DNA of 64,000 bases from NCBI RefSeq assembly GCF_027497235.1, contig NZ_CP114902.1, positions 3,671,501 to 3,735,500 of the forward strand, in the 5' to 3' direction. Below are positions 1 through 16,320 of this stretch, piece after piece. The stretch's first letter is position 1, and every line of letters begins with the position of its first letter. The notes beneath the pieces were generated by a model, which saw nothing but the letters and a program-made list of their open reading frames with translations, was not told the origin of the DNA and made no database searches. The position numbers and the translations under genes are program-made. The DNA is from Micromonospora sp. WMMD1128. GTDB lineage: Bacteria > Actinomycetota > Actinomycetes > Mycobacteriales > Micromonosporaceae.

Positions 1-79
1 ACTCCGACAACCGCAACACCTTGATCATCAGATCGGTGCCGATGTTCCCCGACCCGATCACCGCCACACCCGTGCTCAC
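1..79 (-). CDS. Acetaldehyde dehydrogenase (acylating), N-terminal fragment at window edge
   Basis: Only the first 26 codons lie in the window. Reading leftward from a GTG at 79-77, the peptide begins V-S-T-G-V-A-V-I-G-S-G-N-I-G-T-D-L, the Rossmann NAD-binding start typical of MhpF/DmpF-type CoA-acylating acetaldehyde dehydrogenases. These turn the acetaldehyde released by 4-hydroxy-2-oxovalerate aldolase into acetyl-CoA. The GTG overlaps the stop of the preceding hydratase gene in a GTGA, so the two are probably translationally coupled. Hydratase followed by this enzyme is the usual order in meta-cleavage operons, where the aldolase gene normally comes next. The remainder lies beyond the left edge, so the call rests on a short but characteristic N-terminus. 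Confidence 0.8.
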   Translation of the reverse strand, partial: MSTGVAVIGSGNIGTDLMIKVLRLSE

Positions 80-870
80 TGCCCCACCCCCACACCGAAA
101 CAGACCCGGACCGAACCCAGACCGGAGATACGTGCCTCGTACGCCGCGCCGGCGGTGACCGGCACCATCGGCCCGAGCGCCCCGGACAGCACCACGTCAC
201 CGGCGACGAGCGGGGTGCCCGCGGCGGCCAGCTTCCGGGCCAACCACACGACCGCGTGCACGGGATGGCCGAGACAGGCCGCCCCGGCGCCGACCGACAC
301 CGGCTCCCCCGCGTGTTCGAGCACCATCCCGGCCAGCCGGAGGTCGACCTGCGACAGCGCGCGCGGCTGGTTGCCGAGGACGAACAGGCCCGAGGAGGCG
401 TTGTCGGCGACCGTGTCCACGATCGAGATGTCCCAGTCCGCGATCCGGGAGTCCACGACCTCGATCGCCGGCAGGACGTGGTCGGTCGCCCGGATCACGT
501 CAGCGGTGGTCGGCTGCTCGAAGGGCAGGTCCGCGCCGAGCACGAACGCCACCTCGGCCTCCACCCGGGGCTGCACCAGCCGGCCGAGGTCGATCTCGTC
601 GCCGTCCGGGACCGCCATGTCCGCGTACAGCACCCCGAAGTCCGGCTGGTGGACGCCGAACGCCTCCTGCACCGCCCGCGACGTCAGGCCGATCTTCGCG
701 CCGACCCGCCGCCGGCCGGCGGCCTCCCAGTCGGCGACCTGCGCCCGCTGCACCTGGTACGCCGCGTCGACGTCACCGACCGGCAGCAGGTCGCCGCGCA
801 GCGGCGCGACCGGCTGCCCGGTCTCGTGGGCGGCGCGGAGCAGCGCCGCGGCCCGAACCACGTCGCTCAT
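76..870 (-). CDS. mhpD: 2-oxopent-4-enoate (2-hydroxypentadienoate) hydratase
   Basis: A 264-residue member of the MhpD/fumarylacetoacetate-hydrolase-fold family, which adds water to 2-hydroxypenta-2,4-dienoate to give 4-hydroxy-2-oxovalerate in lower meta-cleavage pathways. Visible family features are GAKIGLTS (57-64), the acidic E-x-E pair within PRVEAEVAF (104, 106) expected at the metal site, and VDTVADNASSG (151-161). That last block fits hydratases better than the homologous 4-oxalocrotonate decarboxylases, though decarboxylase activity cannot be excluded. The ATG at 870 overlaps the stop of the aldehyde dehydrogenase gene (ATGA), and its own stop overlaps the acylating dehydrogenase start. 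It belongs to the operon that also encodes the microcompartment shell. Confidence 0.85.
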   Translation of the reverse strand: MSDVVRAAALLRAAHETGQPVAPLRGDLLPVGDVDAAYQVQRAQVADWEAAGRRRVGAKIGLTSRAVQEAFGVHQPDFGVLYADMAVPDGDEIDLGRLVQPRVEAEVAFVLGADLPFEQPTTADVIRATDHVLPAIEVVDSRIADWDISIVDTVADNASSGLFVLGNQPRALSQVDLRLAGMVLEHAGEPVSVGAGAACLGHPVHAVVWLARKLAAAGTPLVAGDVVLSGALGPMVPVTAGAAYEARISGLGSVRVCFGVGVGQ

Positions 871-2378
871 GACAGGTCCACGCAGACGTTCGTCAGTTCG
901 GAGTAGAAGTTCAGCGAGTGGACGCCGCCCTCCCGGCCGACACCTGACGCCTTCACCCCGCCGAACGGGGTGCGCAGATCCCGCAGGAACCACGTGTTCA
1001 CCCACACGATCCCGGCCTCCAGCCGGGCGCCGGCCCGGTGCGCCCGGCCCACGTCCCGGGTCCAGACGGTGCCGGCCAGCCCGTACTCGCTGTCGTTGGC
1101 CAGGGCGAACGCCTCGTCCTCGTCGTCGAACGGCGTCACGTGGCACACCGGGCCGAAGACCTCCTCCCGGTTGATCCGGGCGGTGGGGGCCAGACCGGTC
1201 AACACCGTCGGCTTGACGTAGGCGCCGCCGTCGCGGGCGTCGTCGAACCGGGGTACGCCGCCACCGGCGAGCACCGTCGCGCCGTCGGCGCGGGCCAGGT
1301 CGTAGTAGCCGAGCACCTTCTCCCGGTGCTGGTGCGAAATCAGCGGCATGTTCACCGTGGCCTCGTCGGCCGGCCAGCCGAACGTCAACTCGTCGGCCCG
1401 CTTCGCCAACCGCGCGGTGAACTCGTCGAACACCTGCCGTTGCACGAACAGCCGCTCGGTGCACAGGCAGACCTGACCGCCGTTGGTGAACGACGACCGG
1501 ACCGAGCCCTCGACCGCGGCGTCGAGGTCCGCGTCCGCGAAGACCAGGCCGGCGTTCTTGCCCCCCAGCTCGAACGACACGGCCTTCACCCCGTCGGCCG
1601 CAGCCCGCATGATCGCCCCGCCGGTGGCCGACTCGCCGGTGAACGTGATCGCGTCCACCCCCGGGTGCCGGGTGAGGAACTCCCCGGCCGAGCCCGGCCC
1701 GAACCCGTGCACCACGTTGAAGACACCGTCGGGCACGCCCGCCGCCGCCATCACCTCGGCCAGTAGCGTGGCCGACGACGGCGTCTCCTCCGACGGCTTC
1801 ACCACCACCGCGTTGCCGCAGGCGAGCGCCGGCGCGACCTTCCACGTCAGCAGCAGCAGCGGCAGGTTCCACGGCACGATCACCGCGACCACCCCGACCG
1901 GCTTGCGCACCGCGTAGTTGAGCGCCCGCCCGCCGGTCGGCGTGGCGGTGGTGAACGACTCCGTCGGCGCGGTCGCCACGATCTCGGCGAAGGCCCGGAA
2001 GTTGGCCGCGCCGCGCGGGATGTCGAGGGTCCGGGCCTGCGAGATCGACTTGCCGGTGTCACCGACCTCGGCCGCCACCAGGTCCTCGAACCGGCGCTCC
2101 AGTTCGTCGGCGACCCGGTACAGGACCGCGGCGCGGTCCCGCTCACCCATCCGGCCCCACGGCCCGCGCACCGCCGACCGCGCCGCGGCCACCGCCGCGT
2201 CCACGGTGGACTCGTCGGCCTCGGCGACGTGGCGGATGGTGTCGCCGGTGACCGGCGAGACCTTGGGGAAGCGCGCGCCGGACGTGTCGAACTCGCCGTC
2301 GACGAAGTTCGGCAGCACGGTCGGCTCGCCGGCCGGCCGGCCGGCGAGCAGGCTCGGGGACCAGAGCCCGTCGGTCAT
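867..2378 (-). CDS. 2-aminomuconate / 2-hydroxymuconate semialdehyde dehydrogenase-like ALDH
   Basis: A 503-residue NAD-dependent aldehyde dehydrogenase expected to oxidise the ring-cleavage semialdehyde to the dicarboxylate. Active-site elements are PWNLP (169-173), FELGGKN with base E270, and the catalytic cysteine C304 in GQVCLC. The end, about residues 490-503 (FYSELTNVCVDLS), is typical of XylG/DmpC/AmnC enzymes. ATG 2378 was chosen because the AGAGG ribosome site lies 8 bases before it. An in-frame GTG at 2387 abuts that site and is unlikely. Compared with remembered relatives the protein has about 24 extra residues at the N-terminus (M-T-D-G-L-W-S-P-S-L-L-A...), a possible microcompartment-targeting peptide. 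The gene lies directly downstream of the shell genes. Confidence 0.88.
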   Translation of the reverse strand: MTDGLWSPSLLAGRPAGEPTVLPNFVDGEFDTSGARFPKVSPVTGDTIRHVAEADESTVDAAVAAARSAVRGPWGRMGERDRAAVLYRVADELERRFEDLVAAEVGDTGKSISQARTLDIPRGAANFRAFAEIVATAPTESFTTATPTGGRALNYAVRKPVGVVAVIVPWNLPLLLLTWKVAPALACGNAVVVKPSEETPSSATLLAEVMAAAGVPDGVFNVVHGFGPGSAGEFLTRHPGVDAITFTGESATGGAIMRAAADGVKAVSFELGGKNAGLVFADADLDAAVEGSVRSSFTNGGQVCLCTERLFVQRQVFDEFTARLAKRADELTFGWPADEATVNMPLISHQHREKVLGYYDLARADGATVLAGGGVPRFDDARDGGAYVKPTVLTGLAPTARINREEVFGPVCHVTPFDDEDEAFALANDSEYGLAGTVWTRDVGRAHRAGARLEAGIVWVNTWFLRDLRTPFGGVKASGVGREGGVHSLNFYSELTNVCVDLS

Positions 2379-2393
2379 CAGGGGCACCTCTCG

Positions 2394-2660
2394 TCAGGCG
2401 GTGGTGGGCGCGGAGTCGGTGGCGTCGGGGTCGGCGATCAGGGCGACGACCGCGGCGTCGACAGTGGTCTCACCGGCCACCGCGGCGGCTGCCTCGTCGG
2501 TGACGACCAGGACGGTGGTGCCGACACCGACGTTCAGCGGATCGACGGCGACCAGGTCGGGGCCGTCGGGCCGGACCCGGACCAGGACGAGCCGCCGGCC
2601 CTGGAGCGGGGTCAGGATGCGGTCCGCCCACACCTTGCCGACGACCTCGCCGAGCACCAT
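2394..2660 (-). CDS. Bacterial microcompartment vertex protein (BMC-P, EutN/CcmL family)
   Basis: An 88-residue EutN/CcmL-type pentameric shell protein, the family that closes the vertices of bacterial microcompartments. It begins MVLGEVVGKVWADR, followed by RRLVLVRV, then VAVDPLNVGVGTTVLVV and VDAAVVALID-like elements. This is the small beta-barrel pattern of CcmL/EutN, in which the D-P-x-x-x-G-x-G-x-x-V-L segment is conserved. The ATG at 2660 overlaps the stop of the upstream BMC-H gene (ATGA), and the ALDH ribosome site follows 3 bases beyond its stop. A longer reading from 2891 is rejected because its N-terminal part is shadow sequence. The tail (DATDSAPTTA) is probably disordered. Confidence 0.88.
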   Translation of the reverse strand: MVLGEVVGKVWADRILTPLQGRRLVLVRVRPDGPDLVAVDPLNVGVGTTVLVVTDEAAAAVAGETTVDAAVVALIADPDATDSAPTTA

Positions 2661-2986
2661 CAGCCTTCTCCGCGCAGGGCGGCCATGACCTCGCGGATCC
2701 GGGCGGTCTCCGGGCCGTCCAGCAGCGCCGCGGTGGTCGGGTGCGGCTTGGGGTAGATCTGCGAGCTGCGCAGCTCGCCGTGGGCCTTGACGGCGGCCTC
2801 GCCGGCCGAGACGGCCTGCCGGACGGCGGCGAGGGTGCCACGTACGGCGGCGGCGAGGTAGCCGCTGGTGACCCGTTCGACGCCGACACACCTGACGTCG
2901 GCAGTCTTGATCATGGCTTCGATGCCCGCCGAAAGGGCCACGATGCCGCGGGTCTCGATGATTCCGATAGCGATGTCGGACGACAT
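2660..2986 (-). CDS. Bacterial microcompartment hexameric shell protein (BMC-H), copy 2
   Basis: A 108-residue protein with one BMC domain: MSSDIAIGIIETRGIVALS, then AGIEAMIKTADVRCVGVERV, a pore segment around TSGYLAAAVRG, and VRQAVSAGEAAV. These follow the PduA/EutM/CcmK pattern of hexamers that tile the shell facets. The start at 2986 has a good ribosome site (GGAG about 8 bases upstream). The C-terminal extension (about residues 76-108, with YPKPHPTTAALL) includes the I-x-x-P-H-type end seen in many BMC-H proteins. The pore sequence SGY differs from the GGG of the neighbouring paralogue, so the two hexamers may pass different metabolites. The gene is 22 bases from the upstream BMC-H gene and overlaps the vertex gene. 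Confidence 0.9.
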   Translation of the reverse strand: MSSDIAIGIIETRGIVALSAGIEAMIKTADVRCVGVERVTSGYLAAAVRGTLAAVRQAVSAGEAAVKAHGELRSSQIYPKPHPTTAALLDGPETARIREVMAALRGEG

Positions 2987-3008
2987 GTCTGGTTCTCCTG
3001 TCCGGGCG

Positions 3009-3299
3009 TCAGTTGCCGACGAGTTGGGGGTCGGCCGCCAGCGCGCTGACGGCGTCGCAGGGGCTCGCGAAGACGATCGATCGCACCGAGCGGCTCTTGG
3101 CCCGCGCGGTCTCCTCACCGATGTCGACGGCTTCCTCGACGGTCGCGAGGTCACCGCGTACGGCGACGGCGACGATGCCGCCGCCGAGCCGGACGACCTT
3201 GGTCACCTCGACCTCGGTGGCCTTCACCATCGCGTCGACGGCGTCGAAGACGGGGGTGAAGCCTTCGGCTTCGACGAAGCCCACGGCCATGTTCCGCAT
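3009..3299 (-). CDS. Bacterial microcompartment hexameric shell protein (BMC-H), copy 1
   Basis: A 96-residue single-domain BMC-H protein: MAVGFVEAEGFTPVFDAVDAM, then VKATEVEVTKVVRLGGG (pore loop), IVAVAVRGDLATVEEAV and a short C-terminus. The E-x-x-G-F and R-G-D-L-A-x-V-x-x-A-V elements are family hallmarks. The start at 3299 has GGAGAGACC just before ATG, whereas the alternative ATG at 3290 has no better site. It lies 10 bases after the stop of the AmnA-like dioxygenase subunit, so the shell is co-transcribed with the ring-cleavage enzyme. No trimeric (BMC-T) shell gene is visible. It may lie beyond the left edge or be absent. Confidence 0.9.
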   Translation of the reverse strand: MRNMAVGFVEAEGFTPVFDAVDAMVKATEVEVTKVVRLGGGIVAVAVRGDLATVEEAVDIGEETARAKSRSVRSIVFASPCDAVSALAADPQLVGN

Positions 3300-3309
3300 G
3301 GTCTCTCCT

Positions 3310-4146
3310 CTAGTGGTCGGTCAGGTTCCAGGACAGGACTGCGCCGCCGGTGCCCCAGATCGGGCCGTAGGCGTGCAGGTGAGCCGGGCCGGTGGCCGCG
3401 TTCGCGCCGGCGGCGAAGGCCAAGGCCCGGAACTGGCTGTCGGCCTGCGCCTGCCGGGCGAAGTCCTCCCGCACGGCGAGCGCCTCGTCGACCTTGCCGC
3501 TGGTGAGCAGGTCGATGATGCGGGTGTTCCACTGCTCGTGGCCGGGTTCGCCGATGCGGTCCTGGCCGGGCTCGATCCACTGTTGGAGGAGCCCGGAGGA
3601 CATCCCGGTCACCACGACGACGGCGGCGCGCAGGCCGGCGTCGCGCGCGGCGGCGGCGCCGGCCCGGCCCACCTCGGCGAGCGTCCCGGCGTCGGCGTAG
3701 AGGTTGCAGGAGACCTGCGCCCAGCGGAGCTTGCGCTCCGGGTCGAGCAGCGCGGAGGTGACGATGGTGCCGGCGTCGATCGGGAACCCCTCGTAGCGGG
3801 TCCGCCGGGCCTGCAACCCGCCGGCCTGGACCCGGTCGGCCCAGCGTTCGGTGAAGTCGACGTCGAACCGCAGGTCGTAGTCGAGCACGCCGTAGTCGTA
3901 GGCGTACCAGTTCTCGTCGACGTGCTGGCCGCGCGGGTTGGGGTCGCACTGGAACTGGTGGCCGAGGACGGTGAACCACTGGGTCGACAGCAGCAGCACC
4001 ACGTCGGGGTCGAGGCGGCGCAGCCGGGCGCCGACGTCGCGGGCCCCGTCGGCGAGCGCCGACCAGCTCGGCGCGGGGTCGTCGGCGAGCAGGTGCGGCA
4101 TGCCGGGCAGCAGCGCCCCGGCGACGATCCCGGTCCGGTCAGCCAT
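3310..4146 (-). CDS. amnA: 2-aminophenol 1,6-dioxygenase-like alpha subunit (class III extradiol)
   Basis: A 278-residue LigB-superfamily protein matching the non-catalytic alpha subunit of 2-aminophenol 1,6-dioxygenase. Recognisable blocks are VVLLLSTQWFTVLG (about 49-62), VDENWYAYD, EGFPIDAGTIV, VSCNLYAD, QDRIGEPGHEQWN and HAYGPIWGTGGAV near the C-terminus. It lacks the HPPH/HAPH metal-ligand pattern present in the partner, as expected for this subunit. It overlaps the partner gene by 8 bases (4139-4146), implying coupled synthesis of a heteromeric enzyme. The probable reaction is ring opening of 2-aminophenol or a substituted analogue to a 2-aminomuconate semialdehyde. The actual substrate is not proven. 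Confidence 0.82.
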   Translation of the reverse strand: MADRTGIVAGALLPGMPHLLADDPAPSWSALADGARDVGARLRRLDPDVVLLLSTQWFTVLGHQFQCDPNPRGQHVDENWYAYDYGVLDYDLRFDVDFTERWADRVQAGGLQARRTRYEGFPIDAGTIVTSALLDPERKLRWAQVSCNLYADAGTLAEVGRAGAAAARDAGLRAAVVVVTGMSSGLLQQWIEPGQDRIGEPGHEQWNTRIIDLLTSGKVDEALAVREDFARQAQADSQFRALAFAAGANAATGPAHLHAYGPIWGTGGAVLSWNLTDH

Positions 4147-5122
4147 GGTGGCTCCCCTCGGGCAGCCACTCCACCACCGCGTTGCCGGTGCCGATGATCG
4201 TGCCGTAGCCGAGCACGTCGCCGGCGACCTTCGGCCAGCCCATCGCGGCGAGCATCCAGGTGAGGCTGCCGGCCTTGGTCTCCGAGGCGGTCGCCTCGAT
4301 GTGTTCGACGATGAGTTCGCGCAGCGGCGCGGTCGGCCCGCGCCGGATCGCCTCCAGCAGCTTCATGTCCCACCGGTACTGGTGGTTGTTGTACGGGTGT
4401 TCCCGTTCCATGTCCTCGGGCAGTTCGGGTTCCTCGTGCCAGTGCAGGTGCGACAGCGAGTTGGAGGCGAGCAGCACGGCCCGCCGCCCGGTGGCCTCGA
4501 CGGCCCGCCGGGTGGCCTCGCCCAGCACCTCCATCTCCTCCAGCGACGCGTCGGAGTAGAAGTACGGGTTGTTGTTCGCCGACAGCGACACCACCGGGAT
4601 GTCCCAGGCCGGGTTCGCCAGGTGCAGGGCGCCGATGGTGGCGTAGTCGACGCGTACCCGGGGGTCCCGCATCGTGCGGGTGACCAGCCCGAGCCCGCTG
4701 GCCTCCGCGGCGATCGCCTCGCCGAGTTCGACGTCGCTGCGGAAGTCGTAACGGTAGCGGAACAGGTGCGGGAAGATCGGCTCGACGGAGATGCCGCGCG
4801 GGTTCGGCACGCAGTTGACGTGGTGGCCGACCATGGTGATCCAGTGCGGGGCGTGGACGATGAGCACGTCGGGCTTGTGCACCTCGCGGATGCGGGCCCG
4901 CAGTCGCTCGTACGCCCAGCGCAGCGTCTCCCACCCGCCGGTGGACCGGGGCTCGTTCTGCGGCGGGTTCTCGCCGTAGATCAGGTGTGGGGGGTGCGGG
5001 CTGAGGCAGCCGGCGACGATGCCGCACCGTGGCGGCGCGGTGGTGGTCGGCTGCGGGGCCCGGGGGGCGGTGGTGGCGCCGCCGCGGGCCGGTGCCAGCG
5101 GCACCCGGAATACCTTGCTCAT
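4139..5122 (-). CDS. amnB: 2-aminophenol 1,6-dioxygenase-like beta (catalytic) subunit with N-terminal extension
   Basis: A 327-residue class III extradiol dioxygenase. The AmnB signature is strong: SPHPPHLIYGENPPQNEP (41-58, Fe-ligand histidine region), TGGWETLRWAYER, VHAPHWITMVGHH (second histidine region near 93), NPRGISVEPIFPHLFRY, LSANNNPYF, LASNSLSHLHWHEEPE and GYGTIIGTGNAVVEW. These enzymes use a His-His-Glu Fe(II) site. Residues 1-32 form an extra segment of basic/hydrophobic start, then Ala/Pro/Thr-rich linker. I do not recall this in AmnB relatives, and it resembles the layout of microcompartment encapsulation peptides. The start overlaps the hyuB-like stop (ATGA). Confidence 0.85.
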   Translation of the reverse strand: MSKVFRVPLAPARGGATTAPRAPQPTTTAPPRCGIVAGCLSPHPPHLIYGENPPQNEPRSTGGWETLRWAYERLRARIREVHKPDVLIVHAPHWITMVGHHVNCVPNPRGISVEPIFPHLFRYRYDFRSDVELGEAIAAEASGLGLVTRTMRDPRVRVDYATIGALHLANPAWDIPVVSLSANNNPYFYSDASLEEMEVLGEATRRAVEATGRRAVLLASNSLSHLHWHEEPELPEDMEREHPYNNHQYRWDMKLLEAIRRGPTAPLRELIVEHIEATASETKAGSLTWMLAAMGWPKVAGDVLGYGTIIGTGNAVVEWLPEGSHHG

Positions 5123-7137
5123 GACCGTCCTCCCCCGGCGAGCACCCGCACGTAGGAACGGTCGTGCGGGGCGGTGCCGAGAATCTGGAGCCCGTCGTCG
5201 TCGAGGGCGAGTTCATCCGCGGCCAGGGCCGCGTCGTGCCGGATCCAGGCCCGCAGCGGGGCCGGATGTCCACCGTGGACCTCGACGAGGGTGTCCTCGG
5301 CGAGGCCGCTGCCGGGGGCCACGTACGCCAGCCGCCGCTGCCCGCGCCGACCGGTGTAGGCCGGGTGGGCGGTGACCGTGGTGCGCAGCCAGCGCCGTTC
5401 CTCGCGCAGCCGCGCCCGGCGGGCGGTGGTCGCGGTCGCGTCGACGTGGCCGGCCGGGTCGAGCACGACGCCGTAGCGCCGCTCGGCCTCGGCGGCGGTC
5501 AGGTATTCCTGGGCGACGTCCTCGGCCACGTCCTCGGGCAGCCGCTCCAGCGGGTCGCCCCAGCCCCCGCCGCCGGCCGACTCCATCACCAGCACGTCAC
5601 CGGCGCGCATCGGGAAACCGGCGACCTTGCCGGGGGTGGCGAAGTCGACGCGCTCGCCGTCGGGCCGCCGGATGTGGGTCACGGTGGGCGCGCCGGGCCC
5701 GCCGTGCCGCAGCCCGTACGGCGGGACCGTGGTCCGGTCGGTCTGCACCGAGTACGCGCCGCCGCTTGCGAGCAGGCGGGTCTCCCGGCGGCTGCCGAGC
5801 CCGCCGCGGCGTACCCCGTCGCCGCAGGAACCGACGCGCAGCTCGCACGCCTCGACGAGGATCGGGATCTCGGTCTCCAGCCGTTCGACGGACTGGATGG
5901 TGGAGATGTCGCCGAGGTCGACGGGGTTCATCGCGCTCGGTCCGTCGGATTCGAGGAACCCGCCGTTGCCACCCGCCGGGTAGTCGTAGTAAAGGTAGGG
6001 CCGTCCGGTGTGCTCGTCGACGCCGCCGATGAGGTTCTGGAAGGTGGTGCCGAACTGGTCGGCGGCGATGAGGTCGGGCGCGACCTGGCTGAGGGCGGCC
6101 ATGACGGCCGAGATGACCCGCTTGCGGACCTCGCTGTGCGCGTTGGCCGGGGCCGGATAGCTGACGTGCGCGACGGTGCCCGGCTCGGTGAGCACCCGCA
6201 GCGGCCGGAACGCGCCGTGGTTGACCAGGCCGCCGGGGTCCAGTGCCGACTTGACCGCGATGAAGACGCCCGCGACGGTCATCGCGCGGGAGGAGTTCAC
6301 CACGGCCGCCACCTGTTTCGACGAGCCGCGGAAGTCGGCCTCGATCTCGTCGCCGTCGACGGTGAGCCGGCACCGCACGATGGCGGCGTCGTAGTCCCCG
6401 TCGGTGTAGAGGTCGAGGTAGTCCTCGTAGTGGTAGGTGCCGTCGGGCAGGGCCCGGATCATGTCGCGCAGCCGCTGCTCGGTGCGGTCCATGTTGGCGG
6501 CGACGGATTCGCCGATCAAATCGGCGCCGTGGCGGGCGACGAGTTCGCGCAGCCGCCGTTCGGCGGTGTGGCAGGCGGCGATGCTGGATTCGAGGTCGCC
6601 GCGGCGTTCCTCGGCCATCCGCACGTTGGCGAAGACGATGTCGAACGCGGCCCGGTTGGGCCGGCCCTGTTCGATCAGCCTGATCGGCGGGATCCGCAGC
6701 CCCTCCTGGAGGATCTCGGTGGCCTGGCCGGAGACGCTGCCCGGGGTCATGCCGCCGATGTCCGCCCAGTGCATGCGCACGCAGGGGAAGAGGAAGAGCT
6801 TCCCGTCGACGAAGACCGGGCTGATCAGGGTCACGTCGTTGAGGTGGCTGCCGCCGCGGTAGGGGTCGTTGACGATGTAGAGGTCGCCGGGGCGCATCTC
6901 GTCGGCGAAGTCGGCGAAGATCTCGGCGACCGAGGCCGGCATGGCGATGACGTGACCGGGCATGTCCCGGCCCTGGGCGACCATCTGCCCCTGCGGGTCG
7001 AACAGCGCGCACGAGAAGTCCTGCGCGTCGGCGATCACCGGCGAGTGCGCCGTGCGGAAGATCGTCTGTCGCATCTCCCGGACGATCGAGATGAGACCTT
7101 CGGTGACGACTTCCAGGTCGATCGGGTTCACAGTCAT
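5119..7137 (-). CDS. hyuB: Hydantoinase B / oxoprolinase-family protein
   Basis: A 672-residue HyuB-type subunit, first gene of the shell/ring-cleavage operon. Family blocks include MTVNPIDLEVVTEGL, FRTAHSPVIADAQDFSCALFD, VNDPYRGGSHLNDVTL, HWADIGGMTPGSVSG, NSSRAMTVAG, PANAHSEVRKR and ESAGGGGWGDP. HyuB proteins act with HyuA in ATP-dependent lactam/hydantoin opening or in related carboxylation reactions. Here the HyuA partner is encoded 6 kb away in a separate operon (13408-15417), although the two are usually adjacent. The ring-opened or carboxylated substrate is unknown. Its upstream region carries the dyad shared with the transporter operon and a tandem GGACCA repeat array. Confidence 0.88.
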   Translation of the reverse strand: MTVNPIDLEVVTEGLISIVREMRQTIFRTAHSPVIADAQDFSCALFDPQGQMVAQGRDMPGHVIAMPASVAEIFADFADEMRPGDLYIVNDPYRGGSHLNDVTLISPVFVDGKLFLFPCVRMHWADIGGMTPGSVSGQATEILQEGLRIPPIRLIEQGRPNRAAFDIVFANVRMAEERRGDLESSIAACHTAERRLRELVARHGADLIGESVAANMDRTEQRLRDMIRALPDGTYHYEDYLDLYTDGDYDAAIVRCRLTVDGDEIEADFRGSSKQVAAVVNSSRAMTVAGVFIAVKSALDPGGLVNHGAFRPLRVLTEPGTVAHVSYPAPANAHSEVRKRVISAVMAALSQVAPDLIAADQFGTTFQNLIGGVDEHTGRPYLYYDYPAGGNGGFLESDGPSAMNPVDLGDISTIQSVERLETEIPILVEACELRVGSCGDGVRRGGLGSRRETRLLASGGAYSVQTDRTTVPPYGLRHGGPGAPTVTHIRRPDGERVDFATPGKVAGFPMRAGDVLVMESAGGGGWGDPLERLPEDVAEDVAQEYLTAAEAERRYGVVLDPAGHVDATATTARRARLREERRWLRTTVTAHPAYTGRRGQRRLAYVAPGSGLAEDTLVEVHGGHPAPLRAWIRHDAALAADELALDDDGLQILGTAPHDRSYVRVLAGGGRS

Positions 7138-8114: not shown

Positions 8115-9734
8115 TCAAAACTTCTCCTGCACCACGTCGGGGCGGATCCGCACGTGCAGCACCGCCGGCCCGGCCAGCGGCAGCACCTCGTCGAAGGCCG
8201 CCCGCGCGCCCGCCGGGTCGGTGACCGTCCACGCCGGCAGCCCGAGCGCGCGGGCCACCGCCGCGAGGTCCCGCGCGGGGAAACGGGCCAGCGCCGGGTC
8301 CACCCCGCGCGGGGCCAGCTTGCGCACCTCCGCGCCGTAAGCGGCGTCGTCGAGCAGCACCAGCAGCACCGGCGCGCCGACCCGGGCCAGGGTGTCCAGC
8401 TCGCCGAGCCCGGTGAGCAGGCTGCCGTCGCCCTCGAAGGCGACCACCGGCCGGTCGGGCCGGCCCACGGCGGCGCCCACCGCGAACGGCAGCCCCACGC
8501 CGATGCTGCCGAACTCCCACGGCGCGAGGAACGACCTGTCGGTCGCGGCCGAGTCGAGCAGCAGGTTGGGCCAGCCGCCGAAGTGACCGACGCCGACCAC
8601 TGTGGTCCGCTCGCGCGGCAGGCGCTCGGCGCAGATCCGGATGAATTCCCGGGGATCGATCCGGCCCGGCCGGGACCCGATGTCCAGGCCCGCGAACGGG
8701 TCGGCGACCGCCAGTTCGGCGGCCAGGTCCGGGCTGCGCCACTCCGGCCGCGCCACCGGCGTCAGCGCCGCCGACATCGCCCGGGCCGTCTCCCCCGCGT
8801 CGCCGACCACCCCGGCGGCCACCGGCCAGCGGGCCCCGATCGCCGCCGGATCGACGTCCACGCCGACCACCACCGCGTCCGGGAAGAGCGCGCCGTGGTC
8901 GGCGGTCCACCGGTTGAGCCCGGCGCCGAACGTCACCACCAGGTCCGCCCCGGCCAGGGTCCGCCGGGTCAGCGGCCGGGACAGCCCCCCGGCCACCCCG
9001 AGGTCGTACGGGTGCCCGGTGAACAGGCCGGCGGCCATCAGCGTGGTGGCGAGCAGGGCCCCACTGCGGTCGGCGAGTTCCCGGATCGCGGCGGCGGACG
9101 GTTCGGCGCCCCGGCCGGCGAGCAGCACCGGGCGGTGCGCCGACCGCAGCCGTCGCGCCAGCGCCTCGACGTCGGCCGGATCCGGCACGAGCGGGCGCGG
9201 CGCGCGGGGCGCCACCGGCGGCGCGAGCACCGGGCCGGGTGGCGCCGGCGCGTCGGCCAGGTCGATCGGCACGTTCAGCACGACCGGGCCGGGCCGCTCG
9301 CGGGCCGCCCGGAAGGCCAACCCGACGTCGCGTACGGCGGTCGGGGCGGCGGCCACCGGTACGAACGTGCCGGCGGTCGCCAGCGCGTACGGCTGCTGGT
9401 CGAAGTGCTGCACGTGCAGCGGGTCGCCGGGCGGGGTGTCGCCGGCGATCAGGACCAGCGGGGTGCGGGCCTGCCGGGCGATGGTCAACGCCGCGCCGGC
9501 CACCGCCAGCCCCGGCCCCTGGGTGACCGTGGCGACCGCGCACCGGCCGGTGCTGCGGGCGTACCCGTCGGCCATCATCACCGCGGCGTTCTCGTTGCGG
9601 GCCGCGACGAAGCGCACGCCGTGCCGCTGCACCAGGTCGGCGACGAGGAACATGTTGGCGTCGCCGAGCAGGCCGAACACGGTGTCGACGCCGTGCGCGA
9701 CGACGGCGTCGGCGATCGCCTCGAAGACCTTCAC
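8115..9734 (-). CDS. Thiamine diphosphate-dependent enzyme (acetolactate synthase / decarboxylase family)
   Basis: A 539-residue three-domain ThDP enzyme. The Pyr domain shows VDTVFGLLGDANMFL and the activating glutamate E48 in RNENAAVMMADGYAR. The PP domain shows GSIGVGLPFAVGAA and FEGDGSLL, followed by LLDDAAYG. Where most relatives have Asn in that last block, this one has Asp-Asp, which may still bind Mg2+. Homologues include acetolactate synthase-like, benzoylformate decarboxylase-like and aldehyde-lyase enzymes, so the substrate cannot be assigned. It is the last gene of the operon starting at 18107. The GTG start overlaps the enoyl-CoA hydratase stop (GTGA). It probably acts on a 2-oxoacid or acyl-CoA intermediate of the upper pathway, which is inference. 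Confidence 0.8.
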   Translation of the reverse strand: MKVFEAIADAVVAHGVDTVFGLLGDANMFLVADLVQRHGVRFVAARNENAAVMMADGYARSTGRCAVATVTQGPGLAVAGAALTIARQARTPLVLIAGDTPPGDPLHVQHFDQQPYALATAGTFVPVAAAPTAVRDVGLAFRAARERPGPVVLNVPIDLADAPAPPGPVLAPPVAPRAPRPLVPDPADVEALARRLRSAHRPVLLAGRGAEPSAAAIRELADRSGALLATTLMAAGLFTGHPYDLGVAGGLSRPLTRRTLAGADLVVTFGAGLNRWTADHGALFPDAVVVGVDVDPAAIGARWPVAAGVVGDAGETARAMSAALTPVARPEWRSPDLAAELAVADPFAGLDIGSRPGRIDPREFIRICAERLPRERTTVVGVGHFGGWPNLLLDSAATDRSFLAPWEFGSIGVGLPFAVGAAVGRPDRPVVAFEGDGSLLTGLGELDTLARVGAPVLLVLLDDAAYGAEVRKLAPRGVDPALARFPARDLAAVARALGLPAWTVTDPAGARAAFDEVLPLAGPAVLHVRIRPDVVQEKF

Positions 9735-10486
9735 CGCGCACCCCCGTCGAGGTAGTCGCCCGGCGGGCGCAGCGCCACGCTCAACGCGCCGAGGTAGGAG
9801 TCGTTCGCCACCGCGTCGAACCGCGGGCCGGCCAGCCGGGCGGCGCGTTTGGTCATCGACCGGCCGACCGGCGAGGTGGCGAGCAGCCGGTCCGTGATGC
9901 GGTCGACGGCGTCCGGCAGCCCGCCGGCGTCGACCACGCCGGTGACCAGGCGCAGGTCAAGCAGTTCGGCGGGTTCGACCCGCTCGCCGAGCAGCAGCCA
10001 GCGCTTGGCCAGGTCCGCGCCGACCAGGTCGGCGAGGATCGCCATGCCGCTCCAGGTCAACGGGATGCCGAAGGTCACCTCGGGGAAGGTGAAGAACGTG
10101 CTGTCGGCGGCCACCCGCAGGTCGGAGGCGAGCCCGAGCACGGCGCCCGAGCCGATCGCCGGCCCGTTGAAGGCGGCGACCGTGGTCTGCTCCAACCGAT
10201 ACCAGCGTTCGACGAGTTCGGCGGTGCGGCGCTGCACGTGCATGGTGGTCCCGGCGTCGAGCCCGGCCAACTCCCGCAGGTCGGTGCCGGCGCAGAACGC
10301 CGTCCCCGCGCCGGTCAGCACCACCACCTCGACGGTGCGGTCCCGGCCGAGGTCGTGCAGCACGTCCTCGAAACGGGCGAGCATGGCGAGGTCGAAGCTG
10401 TTGCGGCGGGACGGCCGGTTCAACGTCACCCGGGCCAGTCGCCCGGAGTGGTCCACCAGCACGGACTGGTCAGTGGTCATGGTCAT
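9731..10486 (-). CDS. Enoyl-CoA hydratase/isomerase (crotonase) family protein
   Basis: A 251-residue crotonase-fold protein. Features are VTLNRPSRRNSFD, the oxyanion-hole segment AFCAGTDLREL, FNGPAIGSGAVLGLASDLRVAA for the second oxyanion-hole and catalytic region, and FTFPEVTFGIPLTW. The family performs hydration, isomerisation, C-C cleavage or dehalogenation on CoA thioesters. Two ATG codons (10486 and 10480) are close. The outer one has GGAG five bases upstream and overlaps the lyase stop (ATGA), so it is preferred. Its position after an acyl-CoA ligase gene suggests it processes an aromatic or ring-opened acyl-CoA in this operon. Confidence 0.87.
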   Translation of the reverse strand: MTMTTDQSVLVDHSGRLARVTLNRPSRRNSFDLAMLARFEDVLHDLGRDRTVEVVVLTGAGTAFCAGTDLRELAGLDAGTTMHVQRRTAELVERWYRLEQTTVAAFNGPAIGSGAVLGLASDLRVAADSTFFTFPEVTFGIPLTWSGMAILADLVGADLAKRWLLLGERVEPAELLDLRLVTGVVDAGGLPDAVDRITDRLLATSPVGRSMTKRAARLAGPRFDAVANDSYLGALSVALRPPGDYLDGGAR

Positions 10487-11841
10487 GGTGACTCCGAGGT
10501 CAGAAGGGCCCGGTCGACGAGCGCGGCGGCGTGCCCGACGTACGACAGCGGGTCGAGCAGCCCGGCCAGGTCGGCGCCGGGCAGGGCGGCGGCCACCTGC
10601 GGGTCGGCGCGCAGCACGTCGGCGAACGGCCGGTTCTGTTCCAGGCTGTCGCGGACGATCCGCATCACCAGGTGGTGGGCCTGTTCCCGGCCGAGTGGCT
10701 CGGCGAGGCGGAGCATGACCGCCTCGGAGAGCACCAGCCCGCCGGTGAGGTCCAGGTTGGACCGCATCCGGTCCGGGTTGACGCCGAGGTCGCCGAAGAC
10801 CTCGACCAGCCGTTCCAGCGCGCCGCCGATGAGGATGAAGCACTCCGGCAGCAGCTTCCACAGCGTCATGCCGACGCCCATGTCGCGGTCGTCCTGGGCG
10901 ACCATGGTCTGCAACGCCAGCGGCACCTGCGCGCGCAGCGTGCCGGCGGCGGCGATCACCGCCTCGCACCGGATCGGGTTGCGCTTGTGCGGCATCGTGC
11001 TGCTGCCGACCTGGGTGGCGCGCTGCGGCTCGTACGCCTCACCGACCTCGGTGCGCCCGAGGAAGTAGACCTCCCGGGCCAGCTTCTCGGCGCTGGCGGC
11101 GACCAGCCCGAGGACCATCAGGCACTCGGCGAACCGGTCCGACGTGGCGTGCCACGGGGTGTCCGCGACGCCGAGGCCGAGTTCGTCGGCCACCGCGCGT
11201 TCCAGGGCGAACGCCTGCGGGCCGTAGCCGGCCATCGTGCCGGCGGCTCCGCCCATGCTCGTCACGAGCAGCCGGGCCCGCATCTGGGCCAGCCGCGCCC
11301 GGTGCCGTTGCAGCTCGCTCTGCCACACCGCGCAGCGCAGCCCGAACGTGGTCGGCAGCGCCTGCTGGCCGTGGGTGCGGGCCGGCATCGGGGTGGCCCG
11401 GTGCCGCAGCGCCAACCGGCGCAGGATGCGCACCAGCTCGTCGACCTGGCGCGCGACGATGTCCAGGCCGGCCCGGGCCCGCAGCACGAACCCGGTGTCC
11501 ATCACGTCCTGGGTGGTCGCGCCGAGGTGGACGTAACGGCCGGCGTCGTCGGAGCACGCGGCGGTCAGCGCCCGGACCAGCGGCACCAGCGGGTGCACGG
11601 TGTCCGCGGCGTCGGCGGCGAGCACCGCCGTGTCGAGCCGGTCGAGCCGGGCCGCGTCGGTGATGGCCCGGGCCGCGGTCGACGGGATGACGCCGAGGCC
11701 GGCCTGGGCGCGGGCCAGGGCCGCCTCGACGTCGAGCCAGGACTGCATGAGCTGACGGTCGTTGAAGACCCCCCGCATCTCGGCGTTGCCGAAGAAGCTG
11801 GTGACGGTCAACGAGTCCAGGAAACACGAGCCGAGTTGCAT
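10483..11841 (-). CDS. Adenylosuccinate lyase / 3-carboxymuconate cycloisomerase (PcaB)-like lyase
   Basis: A 452-residue member of the fumarase/aspartase superfamily. The signature GSSTMPHKRNP is at 279-289, THGQQALPTTFG (H157 region) supplies the second conserved patch, and HLGATTQDVMDT (105-116) the first. Family reactions are beta-eliminations (adenylosuccinate or argininosuccinate lyase) or the muconate cycloisomerisation of PcaB. Its place between a CoA ligase and a crotonase in a catabolic operon argues against a housekeeping purine role and for a lyase or cycloisomerase step on an aromatic-derived acid. The start overlaps the ligase stop by one base (TGATG). The substrate is unknown. 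Confidence 0.83.
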   Translation of the reverse strand: MQLGSCFLDSLTVTSFFGNAEMRGVFNDRQLMQSWLDVEAALARAQAGLGVIPSTAARAITDAARLDRLDTAVLAADAADTVHPLVPLVRALTAACSDDAGRYVHLGATTQDVMDTGFVLRARAGLDIVARQVDELVRILRRLALRHRATPMPARTHGQQALPTTFGLRCAVWQSELQRHRARLAQMRARLLVTSMGGAAGTMAGYGPQAFALERAVADELGLGVADTPWHATSDRFAECLMVLGLVAASAEKLAREVYFLGRTEVGEAYEPQRATQVGSSTMPHKRNPIRCEAVIAAAGTLRAQVPLALQTMVAQDDRDMGVGMTLWKLLPECFILIGGALERLVEVFGDLGVNPDRMRSNLDLTGGLVLSEAVMLRLAEPLGREQAHHLVMRIVRDSLEQNRPFADVLRADPQVAAALPGADLAGLLDPLSYVGHAAALVDRALLTSESP

Positions 11842-13403
11842 CAGCGCTCCTCCTCACCGGTGAGCAGGCCGAGCGCGGCGCGCCTGTCGACCTTGCCGGA
11901 CGGCAGCAACGGCAGGCCCGGCACCGTGCGGATCAGCGTCGGCACCTTGTGCCGGGCCAGTCGGGCGGCGGCGGTCGCGGCGAGCCGGTCGGGGTCGGCC
12001 TCGGCGCCCGCGGCGGCGACGACGAGCACGCCGACCTCCTCGCCCCACCGCGGCGACGGCACCCCGAGCACACACACCTGGGCGACCGTCGGGTCGTCGA
12101 GCAGCGCCGCCTCCACCTCGGCCGGGCTGACGTTCTCGCCGCCCCGGATGATCAGTTCCTTGACCCGGCCGGTGAGGGTGAGGACCCGGTCGCCGTCGAG
12201 CGCGCCCAGGTCACCGGTACGCAGCCACCCGTCGTCGGTGAGCGCGGCCCGGGTGGCGACCGGGTCGTCGAGGTAGCCGGCGGTCACCGACTCGCCGCGT
12301 ACCAGCAGCTCGCCGGGCTGGCCGGCGGGCAGTTCGGTCCGGGTGCCCGGCGCGACGACGACGGCGCACAGGTCCGGCACGATCCGGCCGACGGTGTCGC
12401 CGGGCGGGCCGCAGCTTCCGTCCCCGGGGTCGACGCTTATCGTCGGCCCGGCCTCGGTCTGCCCGTAGATCACCGCGATCCGGTCCAGCCCGAACACCCG
12501 CCGGGTCCGGGCGAGCAGCGCCGGCGCGCACGCGGCGCCGCCGAGGAAGCCGACCCGCAGCGAGGACAGGTCGAAGCGCTCGGGCGCGGGCTCGACGGTG
12601 TCGGCGAGCATCGTCGCCATCGTCGGCACGGCCTGGAGCACGGTGCACCGGTGCCGGGCGATCTGGGCCAGCACCGGCTCGGAGCGGAACCGGCGGACCG
12701 ACACCCACAGCGCCCCGGTGACAAGCGCCAGCACGGCGCCGCTGCCGAGGCCGGCCGCGTGCGCCAGGGGCAGCGGCGAGGCGATCCGGTCGTCAGCGCC
12801 GAGCCGGGCGGCGTCGGCCGTCCAGCGGGCGTTGGCGACCAGGTTGCGGGCGCTGAGCGCCACCATCTTGGCCGGGCCGGTCGAGCCCGAGGTGAACTGG
12901 ATGTTCAGGGTCGCGTCGGGGTGTCCGGCCGGGGCCGGCGCCGGGCCGGCCCAGCCGGGCAACCCGGACAGGTCGTCGCCGAACGTGTGCCAGCCGTCCG
13001 GGCGGGCGTCCGGCGGCAGGGCGGCGACCGCCCGCGCGGCGGTGGCCCCGCCGTCGCGGTCCCGCACCCGGTCGGCGACGAAGAGCCGGCGGGGGCGGCT
13101 GCGGGCCAGCGCCGCGGTGAGTTCCGCCGCGGTCAGGGCCGGATGCAGGGTCACCAGCGCGGCGCCCCGCCAGGCCGCGGCGGCCAGCAGGACCAGCCAG
13201 CCGAGGCCGTTCTCGGCCCACACCGCGACCCGGTCGCCGCGACCGACCCCGAGCGCGGCGAGCACCCCCGCGCCCCGACCGGCGAGGTCGGCGAACTCGC
13301 CGGCCGACACCGGTCGGTCCCAGTCGTCGAAGACGTACAACGGACGGTCCGGTGCCTGGGCGGCGCGGTCCAGGACGGTGGCGTCGAAGGCGGGCGGGAT
13401 CAC
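11841..13403 (-). CDS. AMP-dependent acyl-CoA ligase (ANL superfamily)
   Basis: A 520-residue adenylate-forming enzyme expected to activate a carboxylic acid as its CoA thioester. Core motifs in order are FTSGSTGPAKMVALS (P-loop-like A3, about 160-175), VIYGQTEAGP (A5), RTGDLGALDGDRVLTLTGRVKELIIRGGENVSP (A7-A8, hinge) and LPLLPSGKVDRRA, with the catalytic lysine of A10. The GTG start at 13403 is preceded by AAGGAG inside the end of hyuA, with only 4 bases between stop and start, so the genes are coupled. Context suggests an aromatic or ring-opened acid taken up by the upstream transporter. Specificity cannot be read from the sequence alone. Confidence 0.87.
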   Translation of the reverse strand: MIPPAFDATVLDRAAQAPDRPLYVFDDWDRPVSAGEFADLAGRGAGVLAALGVGRGDRVAVWAENGLGWLVLLAAAAWRGAALVTLHPALTAAELTAALARSRPRRLFVADRVRDRDGGATAARAVAALPPDARPDGWHTFGDDLSGLPGWAGPAPAPAGHPDATLNIQFTSGSTGPAKMVALSARNLVANARWTADAARLGADDRIASPLPLAHAAGLGSGAVLALVTGALWVSVRRFRSEPVLAQIARHRCTVLQAVPTMATMLADTVEPAPERFDLSSLRVGFLGGAACAPALLARTRRVFGLDRIAVIYGQTEAGPTISVDPGDGSCGPPGDTVGRIVPDLCAVVVAPGTRTELPAGQPGELLVRGESVTAGYLDDPVATRAALTDDGWLRTGDLGALDGDRVLTLTGRVKELIIRGGENVSPAEVEAALLDDPTVAQVCVLGVPSPRWGEEVGVLVVAAAGAEADPDRLAATAAARLARHKVPTLIRTVPGLPLLPSGKVDRRAALGLLTGEEER

Positions 13404-13407
13404 CGGA

Positions 13408-15417: not shown

Positions 15418-15453
15418 GGCGAGCCTTTCGCTAGTGGTGGGCGCGCGGACCCG

Positions 15454-15471
15454 GGCGGCCGTCGGGCCGCC
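15454..15471 (-). other. Intercistronic hairpin between permease and hyuA
   Basis: GGCGGCC (15454-15460) and GGCCGCC (15465-15471) form a 7-base perfect stem with a 4-base loop in the 70-base gap between the permease stop and hyuA. No T-tract follows. It could be a weak attenuator or an mRNA-stability element that sets different levels of transporter and enzyme. Confidence 0.35.
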
Positions 15472-15487
15472 GGCACGGTCGGTCGGA

Positions 15488-16318
15488 TCAGAAGGTGACG
15501 CCGTAGCGGCGCAGGGTCCTGCTGGTGACGGCCCGCAGGATCCAGTCGAAGAGGTAGCCGAGCAGGCCCAGGGCGATGATGCCGACGAAGACCCACTCCG
15601 TCTTGGCGTAGTTGCGGGCGGTCCAGATGAGCGAGCCGAGGCCGCTCTGCGCCGCCACGATCTCGGCGGAGACGATCGTCAGGAACGAGTTGCCCATGGC
15701 CAGCCGCGCGCCGGTGACGACGTGCGGGACGGTCGACGGCAGCACCACCGAGACCAGGGTGCGGGCCGGGTTGGCGCCGAGCGCCCGCGCGGCCCGCAGC
15801 CGCAGCTCGTCGACCGACAGGACCCCCGCGAGGGTGTTCAACGCGACGATGAAGACGGTGGTGTAGAAGATCAGCGCGATCTTCGACGCCTCGCCCGGGC
15901 CGAGCCAGATGATCGCCAGCGTGACGAAGGCGATCGGCGGCACGAACCGGAAGAACTGGATGTACGGGTCCACCATCAGCCGCAGCCACGGCACGCAGCC
16001 CATGAGCAGCCCGACCGGTACGCCGATCACCACACCGAGCGCCCAGCCGGTCAGGATCCGGGTGGACGAGGCGCTCACCGAGCTCCACAGCGTGCCGTCC
16101 TGGACCAGGTCGACCGCGCCCCGCCAGGTGAGCAGCGGCGACGGCAGGAAGAAGGCGGTGTAGTTGCGGCTGACCAGGTCCCAGACGACGACGCCGAGCA
16201 CCACCGACAGGACCGACAGCCCGACCCGGGTCAGCCGGGGCCCGGGCCGGCGCCGGCGGGCCGGACCGGGAGTGTCCCGACCGGTCCGCTCCGCCACCGT
16301 ACGTACGTCCACGCTCAT
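15488..16318 (-). CDS. ABC transporter permease, NitT/TauT (SsuC) family
   Basis: A 276-residue inner-membrane permease. After a basic cytoplasmic N-terminus (RRRRPGPR) come about six hydrophobic segments, beginning VGLSVLSVVLGVVVWDLVS. The coupling-loop (EAA-type) region is RAARALGANPARTLVSVVLPSTVPHVVTGARLAMG, which contains the A-x-x-x-G motif that contacts the ATPase. The family imports sulfonates, nitrate-like anions, aromatic acids and pyrimidine precursors. The ATG at 16318 lies 2 bases after the ATPase stop. The longer reading beginning at 16879 is a shadow N-terminus over the ATPase gene. With the substrate-binding lipoprotein and the ATPase it forms a complete importer feeding the catabolic operon. 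Confidence 0.88.
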   Translation of the reverse strand: MSVDVRTVAERTGRDTPGPARRRRPGPRLTRVGLSVLSVVLGVVVWDLVSRNYTAFFLPSPLLTWRGAVDLVQDGTLWSSVSASSTRILTGWALGVVIGVPVGLLMGCVPWLRLMVDPYIQFFRFVPPIAFVTLAIIWLGPGEASKIALIFYTTVFIVALNTLAGVLSVDELRLRAARALGANPARTLVSVVLPSTVPHVVTGARLAMGNSFLTIVSAEIVAAQSGLGSLIWTARNYAKTEWVFVGIIALGLLGYLFDWILRAVTSRTLRRYGVTF

Positions 16319-16320
16319 GG

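Follow-up and report, generated by a model that had tools for sequence, protein, structure and literature searches.

The ARO loci, a type of bacterial microcompartment (BMC) locus named by Sutter 2021 (PMC8217296), were described by Doron 2023 (PMC10470539) as consisting of two BMC-H shell genes, one BMC-P gene, a dioxygenase, a dehydrogenase and an IclR regulator, with HyuA encoded upstream and HyuB within the operon, and as falling into 2-aminophenol and catechol subtypes. Here we describe an ARO locus of Micromonospora sp. WMMD1128 that lies in a 64,000-nucleotide stretch of contig NZ_CP114902.1 (positions 3,671,501 to 3,735,500 of the forward strand; "the window"), and we report that the N-terminal segment of its dioxygenase beta subunit, AmnB, recurs on two unrelated enzymes encoded at sister loci and may be an encapsulation tag.

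On the account of Doron 2023, ARO may be the first microcompartment to break down an aromatic substrate; the structure of the dioxygenase has been solved, and the activities of the dioxygenase and the dehydrogenase have been shown in vitro. That paper proposed the N-terminal extension of AmnB, which is not predicted to be helical and whose first 29 residues are invisible in the crystal, as a possible encapsulation determinant. It reported no encapsulation peptide on the dehydrogenase, which it placed outside the CoA-dependent family, and it described a common region upstream of the regulator in which HyuA was named. Its text identifies no upper-pathway enzymes and leaves open the substrate, the targeting of the enzymes and the location of the later ones. 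A literature search with the phrase "ARO BMC" returned this paper only.

The shell genes and the N-terminal segment of AmnB

The sequence-only reading of the window had placed two BMC-H genes and one EutN/CcmL-type gene amid an aminophenol dioxygenase operon, and had suspected that such a locus type might not be new. Both points held. All three shell genes score well above their Pfam cut-offs and, judged by its genes, the locus is an ARO microcompartment, probably of the 2-aminophenol subtype, a known locus type (PMC8217296, PMC10470539). Nearly all of the ARO features that could be tested are present, namely two PF02900 subunits beside shell genes, two types of BMC-H with one BMC-P and no BMC-T, a P(R/K)PH motif in one BMC-H only, a semialdehyde dehydrogenase, an adjoining IclR gene and an actinobacterial host; the match of the deaminase falls under its family cut-off. 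The central features are as follows.

2394..2660, minus strand: BMC-P (EutN/CcmL) pentamer shell gene; PF03319, 55.1 bits (cut-off 25; searched with nine upstream bases)
2660..2986, minus strand: BMC-H with PKPH motif in its translation (H_cerulean-like by Doron's description); PF00936, 70.9 bits (cut-off 24.5)
3009..3299, minus strand: BMC-H without P(R/K)PH motif (H_lipstickred-like); PF00936, 64.3 bits (cut-off 24.5)
3310..4146, minus strand: 2-aminophenol 1,6-dioxygenase alpha subunit (AmnA-like); PF02900 (LigB), 37.1 bits (cut-off 26.3)
4139..5122, minus strand: 2-aminophenol 1,6-dioxygenase beta subunit (AmnB-like); PF02900 (LigB), 83.6 bits (cut-off 26.3); PDB 7txy_B, 711.7 bits
5024..5122, minus strand: AmnB N-terminal tag MSKVFRVPL with Pro/Ala-rich linker, proposed encapsulation peptide; without counterpart in non-ARO AmnB and common to M24 and metallo-beta-lactamase (MBL) proteins of sister loci

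The ATG of the BMC-P gene at 2660 overlaps the stop codon of the BMC-H gene at 2660-2986, and the AmnB of the window shares 94% identity with AmnB of Micromonospora rosaria (L017), the protein of crystal structure PDB 7txy.

Relatives were collected by a beta-subunit scan of genome contigs, which yielded 33 loci (L010-L042); a further 14 neighbourhoods (L140-L153) were picked from whole-genome matches, making 48 loci with the window. The beta subunit was found in 22 of the 350 Micromonosporaceae genomes sampled, the window's genome included, and in 4 of 345, 4 of 397 and 1 of 391 genomes of three further order-level samples, in which some genomes were already among the 33 scan loci and one match was a fragment. 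At L042 (Actinomadura montaniterrae, near 10000) there is only a dioxygenase fragment covering beta residues 75-179, with no shell-gene match in the 20 kb fetched. The plasmid collection held no ARO loci; its only AmnB matches were five proteobacterial records, all untagged.

All 45 complete AmnB proteins among the 48 loci start with the motif M-x-x-[VI]-F-[RHQK] (L026, L029 and L042 lack a complete 5' end). The linker that follows is Pro-, Ala- and Arg-rich and differs between loci in sequence and length. We built a score matrix from residues 2-8 of 18 beta N-termini and applied it to the start codons, 29,434 in all, of reading frames with 100 codons or more from 49 sources. The 45 top scores were all beta subunits, and the only other starts above 9 bits were those of an M24 protein at L037 (16.1), an M24 protein at L038 (15.0) and an MBL protein at L033 (13.9), the next scoring 8.8. 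Among database proteins, 96 of the 109 beta relatives with at least 14 residues upstream of the core (among the best 120 of 2570) had [VIT]F[RHQKN] there; of the 13 misses, two carry the pattern behind an over-long predicted start, one reads VFL and ten have none in the predicted sequence. Non-ARO AmnB proteins of known structure have no such segment, their alignments beginning at residue 35.

The three proteins that share the segment belong to different Pfam folds. The tagged M24 protein, with Pfam M24 and creatinase N-terminal domains, is encoded in Microtetraspora glauca (L037), where its gene comes after those for the shell proteins, dehydrogenase, decarboxylase and deaminase, and a tagged relative is encoded in Nocardioides soli (L038). 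The pattern occurs in all seven M24 relatives with a long N terminus, the query included, and in none of the other 113 listed. In Actinocorallia sp. A-T 12471, a tagged M24 protein and a beta subunit are each encoded on a contig of 311,298 bases. The tagged MBL-fold protein belongs to Amycolatopsis jejuensis (L033), where its gene precedes the shell genes; its start, MPKVFHAPVGDRTRTRR, equals the database beta subunit P0290 at 13 of 17 positions. A protein from Streptomyces sp. SID8352 (L032), encoded downstream of the dehydrogenase, is 74% identical to the L033 protein and also runs on with VGDRT..RR. The segment is thus common to unrelated co-encoded proteins and absent from noncompartment homologues, as encapsulation peptides are, and from its sequence we infer that it is an encapsulation tag of the ARO shell. 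No M24 or MBL gene of the tagged kind was seen in the window's own locus.

Two further observations concern these sister loci. At L032, a flavin monooxygenase and an alpha/beta hydrolase are encoded between the dehydrogenase and MBL genes (14222-17183), and at L037 a long frame after the dioxygenase genes (11822-13588) resembles an NCS1-family permease, with no Pfam match as called.

An upper cassette linked to the compartment

HyuB, the first gene of the shell operon, is separated by a regulatory gene from a cassette that encodes a thiamine diphosphate (ThDP)-dependent enzyme, a crotonase, a fumarase-superfamily lyase, an acyl-CoA ligase, HyuA and an ATP-binding cassette (ABC) importer.

5119..7137, minus strand: HyuB subunit; PF02538, 547.7 bits; 7hk5, 251 bits; acetophenone carboxylase, 106 bits
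7252..8088, plus strand: IclR-family regulator; PF01614, 165 bits; PF09339, 43 bits
8115..9734, minus strand: ThDP-dependent enzyme; TPP_enzyme N, M and C domains
9731..10510, minus strand: crotonase (enoyl-CoA hydratase family); best NCBIfam matches are enoyl-CoA hydratase families, those shown under cut-off
10483..11841, minus strand: fumarase-superfamily lyase (PcaB, CreD or adenylosuccinate-lyase branch not settled); TIGR00928 purB, 340 bits (cut-off 326); PRK09053 pcaB, 443 bits, under cut-off
11841..13403, minus strand: acyl-CoA ligase; best NCBIfam matches are acyl-CoA ligase families, those shown under cut-off
13408..15417, minus strand: HyuA subunit; N-methylhydantoinase 7hk5, 440 bits; 5-oxoprolinase, 353 bits
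15488..18350, minus strand: ABC importer with permease (PF00528, 97.7 bits), ATPase (PF00005, 107 bits) and NMT1-like substrate-binding protein (PF13379, 63.7 bits); frames overlap and exact starts are not settled

The stretch from HyuA to the ThDP enzyme is present in all 24 other loci whose beta subunits group with the window's in a quick tree (window-type loci), two of them from the order of Microtetraspora. For 10 of the 24, which came from the contig scan, the flank stops inside HyuA and the importer is visible only in the other 14, every one of which has part of the importer permease next to HyuA. All 22 beta-positive Micromonosporaceae genomes carry an orthologue of the ThDP enzyme (69% identity or more) and one of HyuA (75% or more). 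Neither occurs in any of 20 genomes from the same genus that have no beta gene (the 20 listed out of 328 without it); three of these have a ThDP paralogue at 41-42% and five a HyuA paralogue at 39-43%. The cassette therefore goes with the compartment.

Against solved structures, the ThDP enzyme matches BbmA (158 bits), acetolactate synthase (157) and 2-hydroxyacyl-CoA lyase (142) without discrimination, and a literature search on BbmA returned nothing on that protein; the lyase matches PcaB 1re5 (327 bits), CreD (256) and adenylosuccinate lyase (209). Doron 2023 suggested that HyuAB forms 2-aminophenol or catechol by decarboxylating or carboxylating an aromatic acid, pointing to 20-30% similarity to acetophenone carboxylase, and the family does include acetophenone and acetone carboxylases. 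The hydantoinase and oxoprolinase entries are nearer, however: HyuA scores 440 bits with N-methylhydantoinase and 353 with 5-oxoprolinase versus 266 with carboxylases, and HyuB scores 251 and 230 (N-methylhydantoinase and 5-oxoprolinase/hydantoinase entries) versus 106. We therefore favor the opening of a cyclic amide and regard action on an aromatic acid as a credible but doubtful alternative. Neither subunit reaches a curated equivalog cut-off, the caprolactamase models giving 473 and 288 bits against cut-offs of 1000.

In the fetched flanks of the 48 loci, HyuAB was found in 28 (25 window-type loci plus L032, L037 and L038) and a phosphoenolpyruvate (PEP)-utilizing protein, c5, in 16, with both in none. 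Neither was found in L022 and L025 (short contigs), L033 and L042 (the fragment), and genes further out could be missed because several of the c5 loci are also short contigs. The c5 protein of L036 matches NCBIfam PRK08296 with 735 bits (cut-off 578), and 15 of the 16 c5 loci also encode c7, a PPDK_N ATP-binding protein, and a HAD-family hydrolase. This set lies near the shell and dioxygenase genes in L019, L020, L021, L023, L024, L026-L031, L034, L036, L039 and L041. In L019 the c5/c7 pair is upstream of the shell genes; in the others it is downstream. We take the pair to resemble phenylphosphate synthase, with a presumed likeness to PpsA in particular. A two-subunit pair of the phenylphosphate-synthase type converts phenol or aniline with ATP (PMC7500099).

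Between the three groups, HyuA proteins show 38-41% likeness, little more than the 36-39% that they show to another paralogue in the window's genome, and so look like separate recruitments. In a quick, midpoint-rooted FastTree of the beta subunits, in which support was not examined, the c5 loci fall both beside the L032/L033/L037/L038 group and elsewhere, a placement compatible with an ancestral phosphotransferase that gave way to HyuAB on more than one occasion. Because the lineages are few, the mutual exclusion of HyuAB and c5 may partly reflect descent. A division of the two modules between the 2-aminophenol and catechol subtypes was ruled out, as L031, L034 and L039 carry the pair together with RidA.

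Our best guess for the step upstream of the compartment is the ATP-dependent opening of a benzoxazolinone-like ring to 2-aminophenol. There is precedent for such a product in Fusarium, in which an enzyme of the metallo-beta-lactamase family hydrolyzes 2-benzoxazolinone to 2-aminophenol (PMC4726666). The tagged MBL protein could, by analogy, perform a hydrolysis of the 2-benzoxazolinone type in the lumen, and the M24 protein a similar one. A more far-reaching proposal would combine a new, nonclassical tag on three unrelated enzymes with the release of 2-aminophenol inside the shell, by M24 or MBL, from a lactam or a cyclic carbamate (2-benzoxazolinone of plant origin, for example). The feeding module would be an ATP-dependent, activating one, either HyuAB or the phenylphosphate-synthase-like pair according to lineage. 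We put this forward tentatively, as an idea with a modest chance of being right; if true, the compartment's natural substrate would be a benzoxazinoid breakdown product.

A model of the compartment and its alternatives

We propose that the AmnB tag (M-x-x-[VI]-F-[RHQK] and a disordered Pro/Ala-rich linker) would draw AmnA together with AmnB into a shell of two BMC-H proteins and one BMC-P protein, where AmnAB would open the ring of 2-aminophenol. The semialdehyde dehydrogenase would then oxidize 2-aminomuconate semialdehyde ahead of its cyclization to picolinate; the holding of this semialdehyde inside, which the sequence-only reading had also supposed, agrees with the model of Doron 2023. Deaminase, decarboxylase, hydratase, aldolase and acetaldehyde dehydrogenase would lead on to pyruvate and acetyl-CoA, probably in the cytosol. 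The 2-aminophenol itself would be supplied by the upper cassette (ABC importer, ATP-dependent HyuAB cyclic-amide hydrolase, CoA ligase, lyase, crotonase and ThDP enzyme) under the divergent IclR regulator. The model builds on gene content, gene order, conservation and tag sharing as observed in the genomes; tag-driven encapsulation, cytosolic late steps and the role of the cassette are what these suggest. Taken as a whole, we consider it probably correct.

Several findings weigh against it. The compartment is known here from its genes, not from shells, transcripts or localization. M. rosaria fails to grow on 2-aminophenol (Doron 2023, PMC10470539), and no single reaction sequence convincingly employs all of the upper-cassette enzymes. 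Ten of the 109 AmnB relatives (again among the best 120 of 2570) are untagged in the predicted sequence; one of these, P0256, matches an L020 protein that has its tag ahead of the predicted start. The L032 MBL protein scores 8.1, inside the background tail, and three close MBL relatives (58-79% identity) are untagged in the predicted sequence; among the matches listed the pattern occurs in one of four close and 0 of 116 further relatives. In the window's genome only AmnB was found to have tag and linker; tag sharing is therefore a property of the sister loci. The bare motif, moreover, is not unique. A 654-amino-acid gene of the window starts with MTSVFHVA at 59838 (8.1 bits, no linker), and two more clear gene starts, both without a linker, came from the M. 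rosaria genome (MDAVFQVPEP) and from Amycolatopsis (MAVFKLPDLGEG).

Tags on other proteins were sought with DNA patterns. The first of these gave 40 matches in the window's genome and missed AmnB because of codon choice. A strict pattern matched AmnB alone, and a wider one gave five matches. Besides AmnB these were two identical ones, near either chromosome end, in a short frame that looks noncoding, one in a frame whose codon composition is wrong and one within a LacI-like frame. The gene with the look-alike start (57874-59838, minus strand), probably a chance resemblance, was found by the start-codon scan and is in none of the listed DNA-pattern matches. Across 17 ARO genomes the strict pattern matched 53 times, at 13 AmnB genes, 2 M24 genes and 38 others, the last comprising two clear linker-less gene starts (MDAVFQVPEPHNEPV and MAVFKLPDLGEG), one ambiguous case (L085) and matches that are frame internal or noncoding in appearance. 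We take MDAVFQVPEPHNEPV to be the N terminus of a proline-catabolism dehydrogenase; MAVFKLPDLGEG begins a lipoyl-enzyme-like protein. The wider pattern gave 49 matches in 17 of 18 ARO genomes, and beyond AmnB and M24 no start followed by a linker was seen among the 33 + 9 contexts examined. Because the bare motif occurs elsewhere, a tag is recognized by the combination of motif, linker and position in an ARO locus.

An alternative reading of the shared segment is that it docks one enzyme to another, for example to AmnA or the dehydrogenase, or that it is a relic of gene fusion among neighbors. The shell binding of the tag is, after all, deduced from sequence, the M24 and MBL genes lie in or beside the same operons, so that exchange of sequence is possible, and the bare motif begins a few unrelated genes as well. 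The segment is nevertheless kept, with a variable linker, on three unrelated folds, and the 113 other listed M24 relatives all lack it; it is also unseen in the AmnAB crystal, which contains AmnA, so that no docking on AmnA is apparent there (Doron 2023). We therefore think docking or a relic unlikely and retain targeting to the shell as the preferred function.

The sequence-only reading had gone further than our model in placing the hydratase, aldolase and acetaldehyde dehydrogenase in the lumen as well, where acetaldehyde would be held and NAD and CoA recycled. It had named the semialdehyde dehydrogenase, hydratase and acetaldehyde dehydrogenase as neighbors of the shell genes, all of which are there, and had predicted that aldolase, decarboxylase, deaminase and BMC-T genes might be found further left. 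The left flank (L005) bore this out for the aldolase, decarboxylase and RidA-family genes, which follow the rest of the acetaldehyde dehydrogenase gene and precede an unrelated arabinanase gene. No BMC-T gene was found, the whole genome having four PF00936 matches at E <= 0.001, none in tandem. The remaining genes of the run are as follows.

867..2387, minus strand: 2-aminomuconate/2-hydroxymuconate semialdehyde dehydrogenase (AmnC-like); TIGR03216, 806.9 bits (cut-off 693); PDB 4i1w, 702 bits
76..882, minus strand: 2-keto-4-pentenoate hydratase (AmnF-like); NF008461, 309 bits, under its cut-off of 350; best NCBIfam matches all under cut-off
1..79 (rest at L005 15144-16079), minus strand: start of acylating acetaldehyde dehydrogenase (AmnH-like); TIGR03215, 465 bits (cut-off 282)
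L005 12957-15180: aldolase (TIGR03217, over cut-off), decarboxylase (DmpH-like, 192 bits; cut-off 351) and RidA-family protein
L005 12957-13394: RidA-family protein, last gene of the operon, in the place expected of 2-aminomuconate deaminase; 71 bits, under the TIGR00004 cut-off of 106

HyuB, AmnB, AmnA, the two BMC-H proteins, BMC-P, the dehydrogenase, the hydratase and the start of the acetaldehyde dehydrogenase form a packed run in the window, all on the minus strand. As the overlaps and very short gaps already noted from the sequence proved to be overlaps or spacings of at most 22 bases within the window, the 12 genes from HyuB to RidA suggest a single presumed operon. That the late genes belong to this operon, and keep the window's order in most window-type loci, speaks for late enzymes in the lumen. 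Of the operon's enzymes, though, AmnB alone is tagged, and the late genes are elsewhere or divergent in many ARO loci, as Doron 2023 also reports; in eight Actinomycetospora loci the aldolase/acetaldehyde dehydrogenase pair is divergent from the dioxygenase and shell genes. Nor is there a CoA cycle to close, since the main dehydrogenase is not of the CoA-dependent family (Doron 2023) and has 2-aminomuconate semialdehyde dehydrogenases as its nearest solved relatives. Retention of acetaldehyde with internal recycling of NAD and CoA thus appears rather improbable, and we keep to cytosolic late steps. Catechol as the compartment's substrate in place of 2-aminophenol, for which one might cite the dehydrogenase's match to a 2-hydroxymuconic semialdehyde model and the cleavage of catechol by the M. 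rosaria enzyme (Doron 2023), is very improbable given the RidA-family gene (its match under cut-off) that closes the operon, occurs in all 14 newly fetched window-type loci and marks Doron's 2-aminophenol subtype.

Two observations stand beside these. The semialdehyde dehydrogenase showed no tag when one was looked for; before the catalytic domain, window-type dehydrogenases carry a brief and variable stretch resembling LWSPxLLxGRP (window 2334-2366), and a similar one occurs in L031. A second BMC locus of the same genome, at 5.735-5.739 Mb, holds two further PF00936 matches and one further PF03319 (EutN) match and adjoins another HyuA-type gene and a dihydropyrimidinase/D-hydantoinase gene (568 bits, cut-off 393; G000:C1:5735385-5742988; L007 4862-6328).

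Comparison with known systems

The sharing of a tag by three unrelated enzymes and the linkage of the upper cassette to the compartment seem to be new. Neither of these, nor the phenylphosphate-synthase-like pair, appears in the introduction, results or discussion of Doron 2023 or was returned by a word search of its main text. The tag would offer a direct test of how ARO enzymes enter the shell, along with two further cargo candidates, the M24 and MBL proteins. The linked cassette, with the MBL precedent (PMC4726666), provides a testable candidate for the true substrate of ARO, and engineers of simple three-protein shells might find a short, portable tag useful.

The window's locus shares with the ARO loci of Sutter 2021 and Doron 2023, as described there, the shell set, dioxygenase, dehydrogenase, a RidA-family gene in the position of the deaminase, late meta-cleavage enzymes, IclR regulator, placement of HyuA and HyuB, and phylum, and no departure from them was seen in the window. 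The amn/cnb operons of Comamonas and Pseudomonas encode the same reactions, with plasmid beta copies 57-59% identical (five records); their beta subunits have no N-terminal tag, the alignment starting at residue 35, and according to Doron 2023 their 2-aminophenol pathways have no shell genes. The phenylphosphate and phenylphosphoamidate synthases (PMC7500099) are two-subunit and PEP-synthase-like, as would be c7 (ATP binding) and c5 (PEP-utilizer mobile domain) of the Pseudonocardiales-type ARO loci. As a difference, no UbiD-type carboxylase gene was noticed among the annotated neighbors of c5/c7, and the pair is not in the window.

Classical metabolosome encapsulation peptides are short terminal elements, amphipathic helices joined by a flexible linker to unrelated cargo enzymes. 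The proposed ARO tag would resemble them in its terminal position, its linker and its occurrence on unrelated enzymes and would differ from them in form, being a V-F motif of 6-9 residues on an AmnB extension that is not predicted to be helical (Doron 2023).

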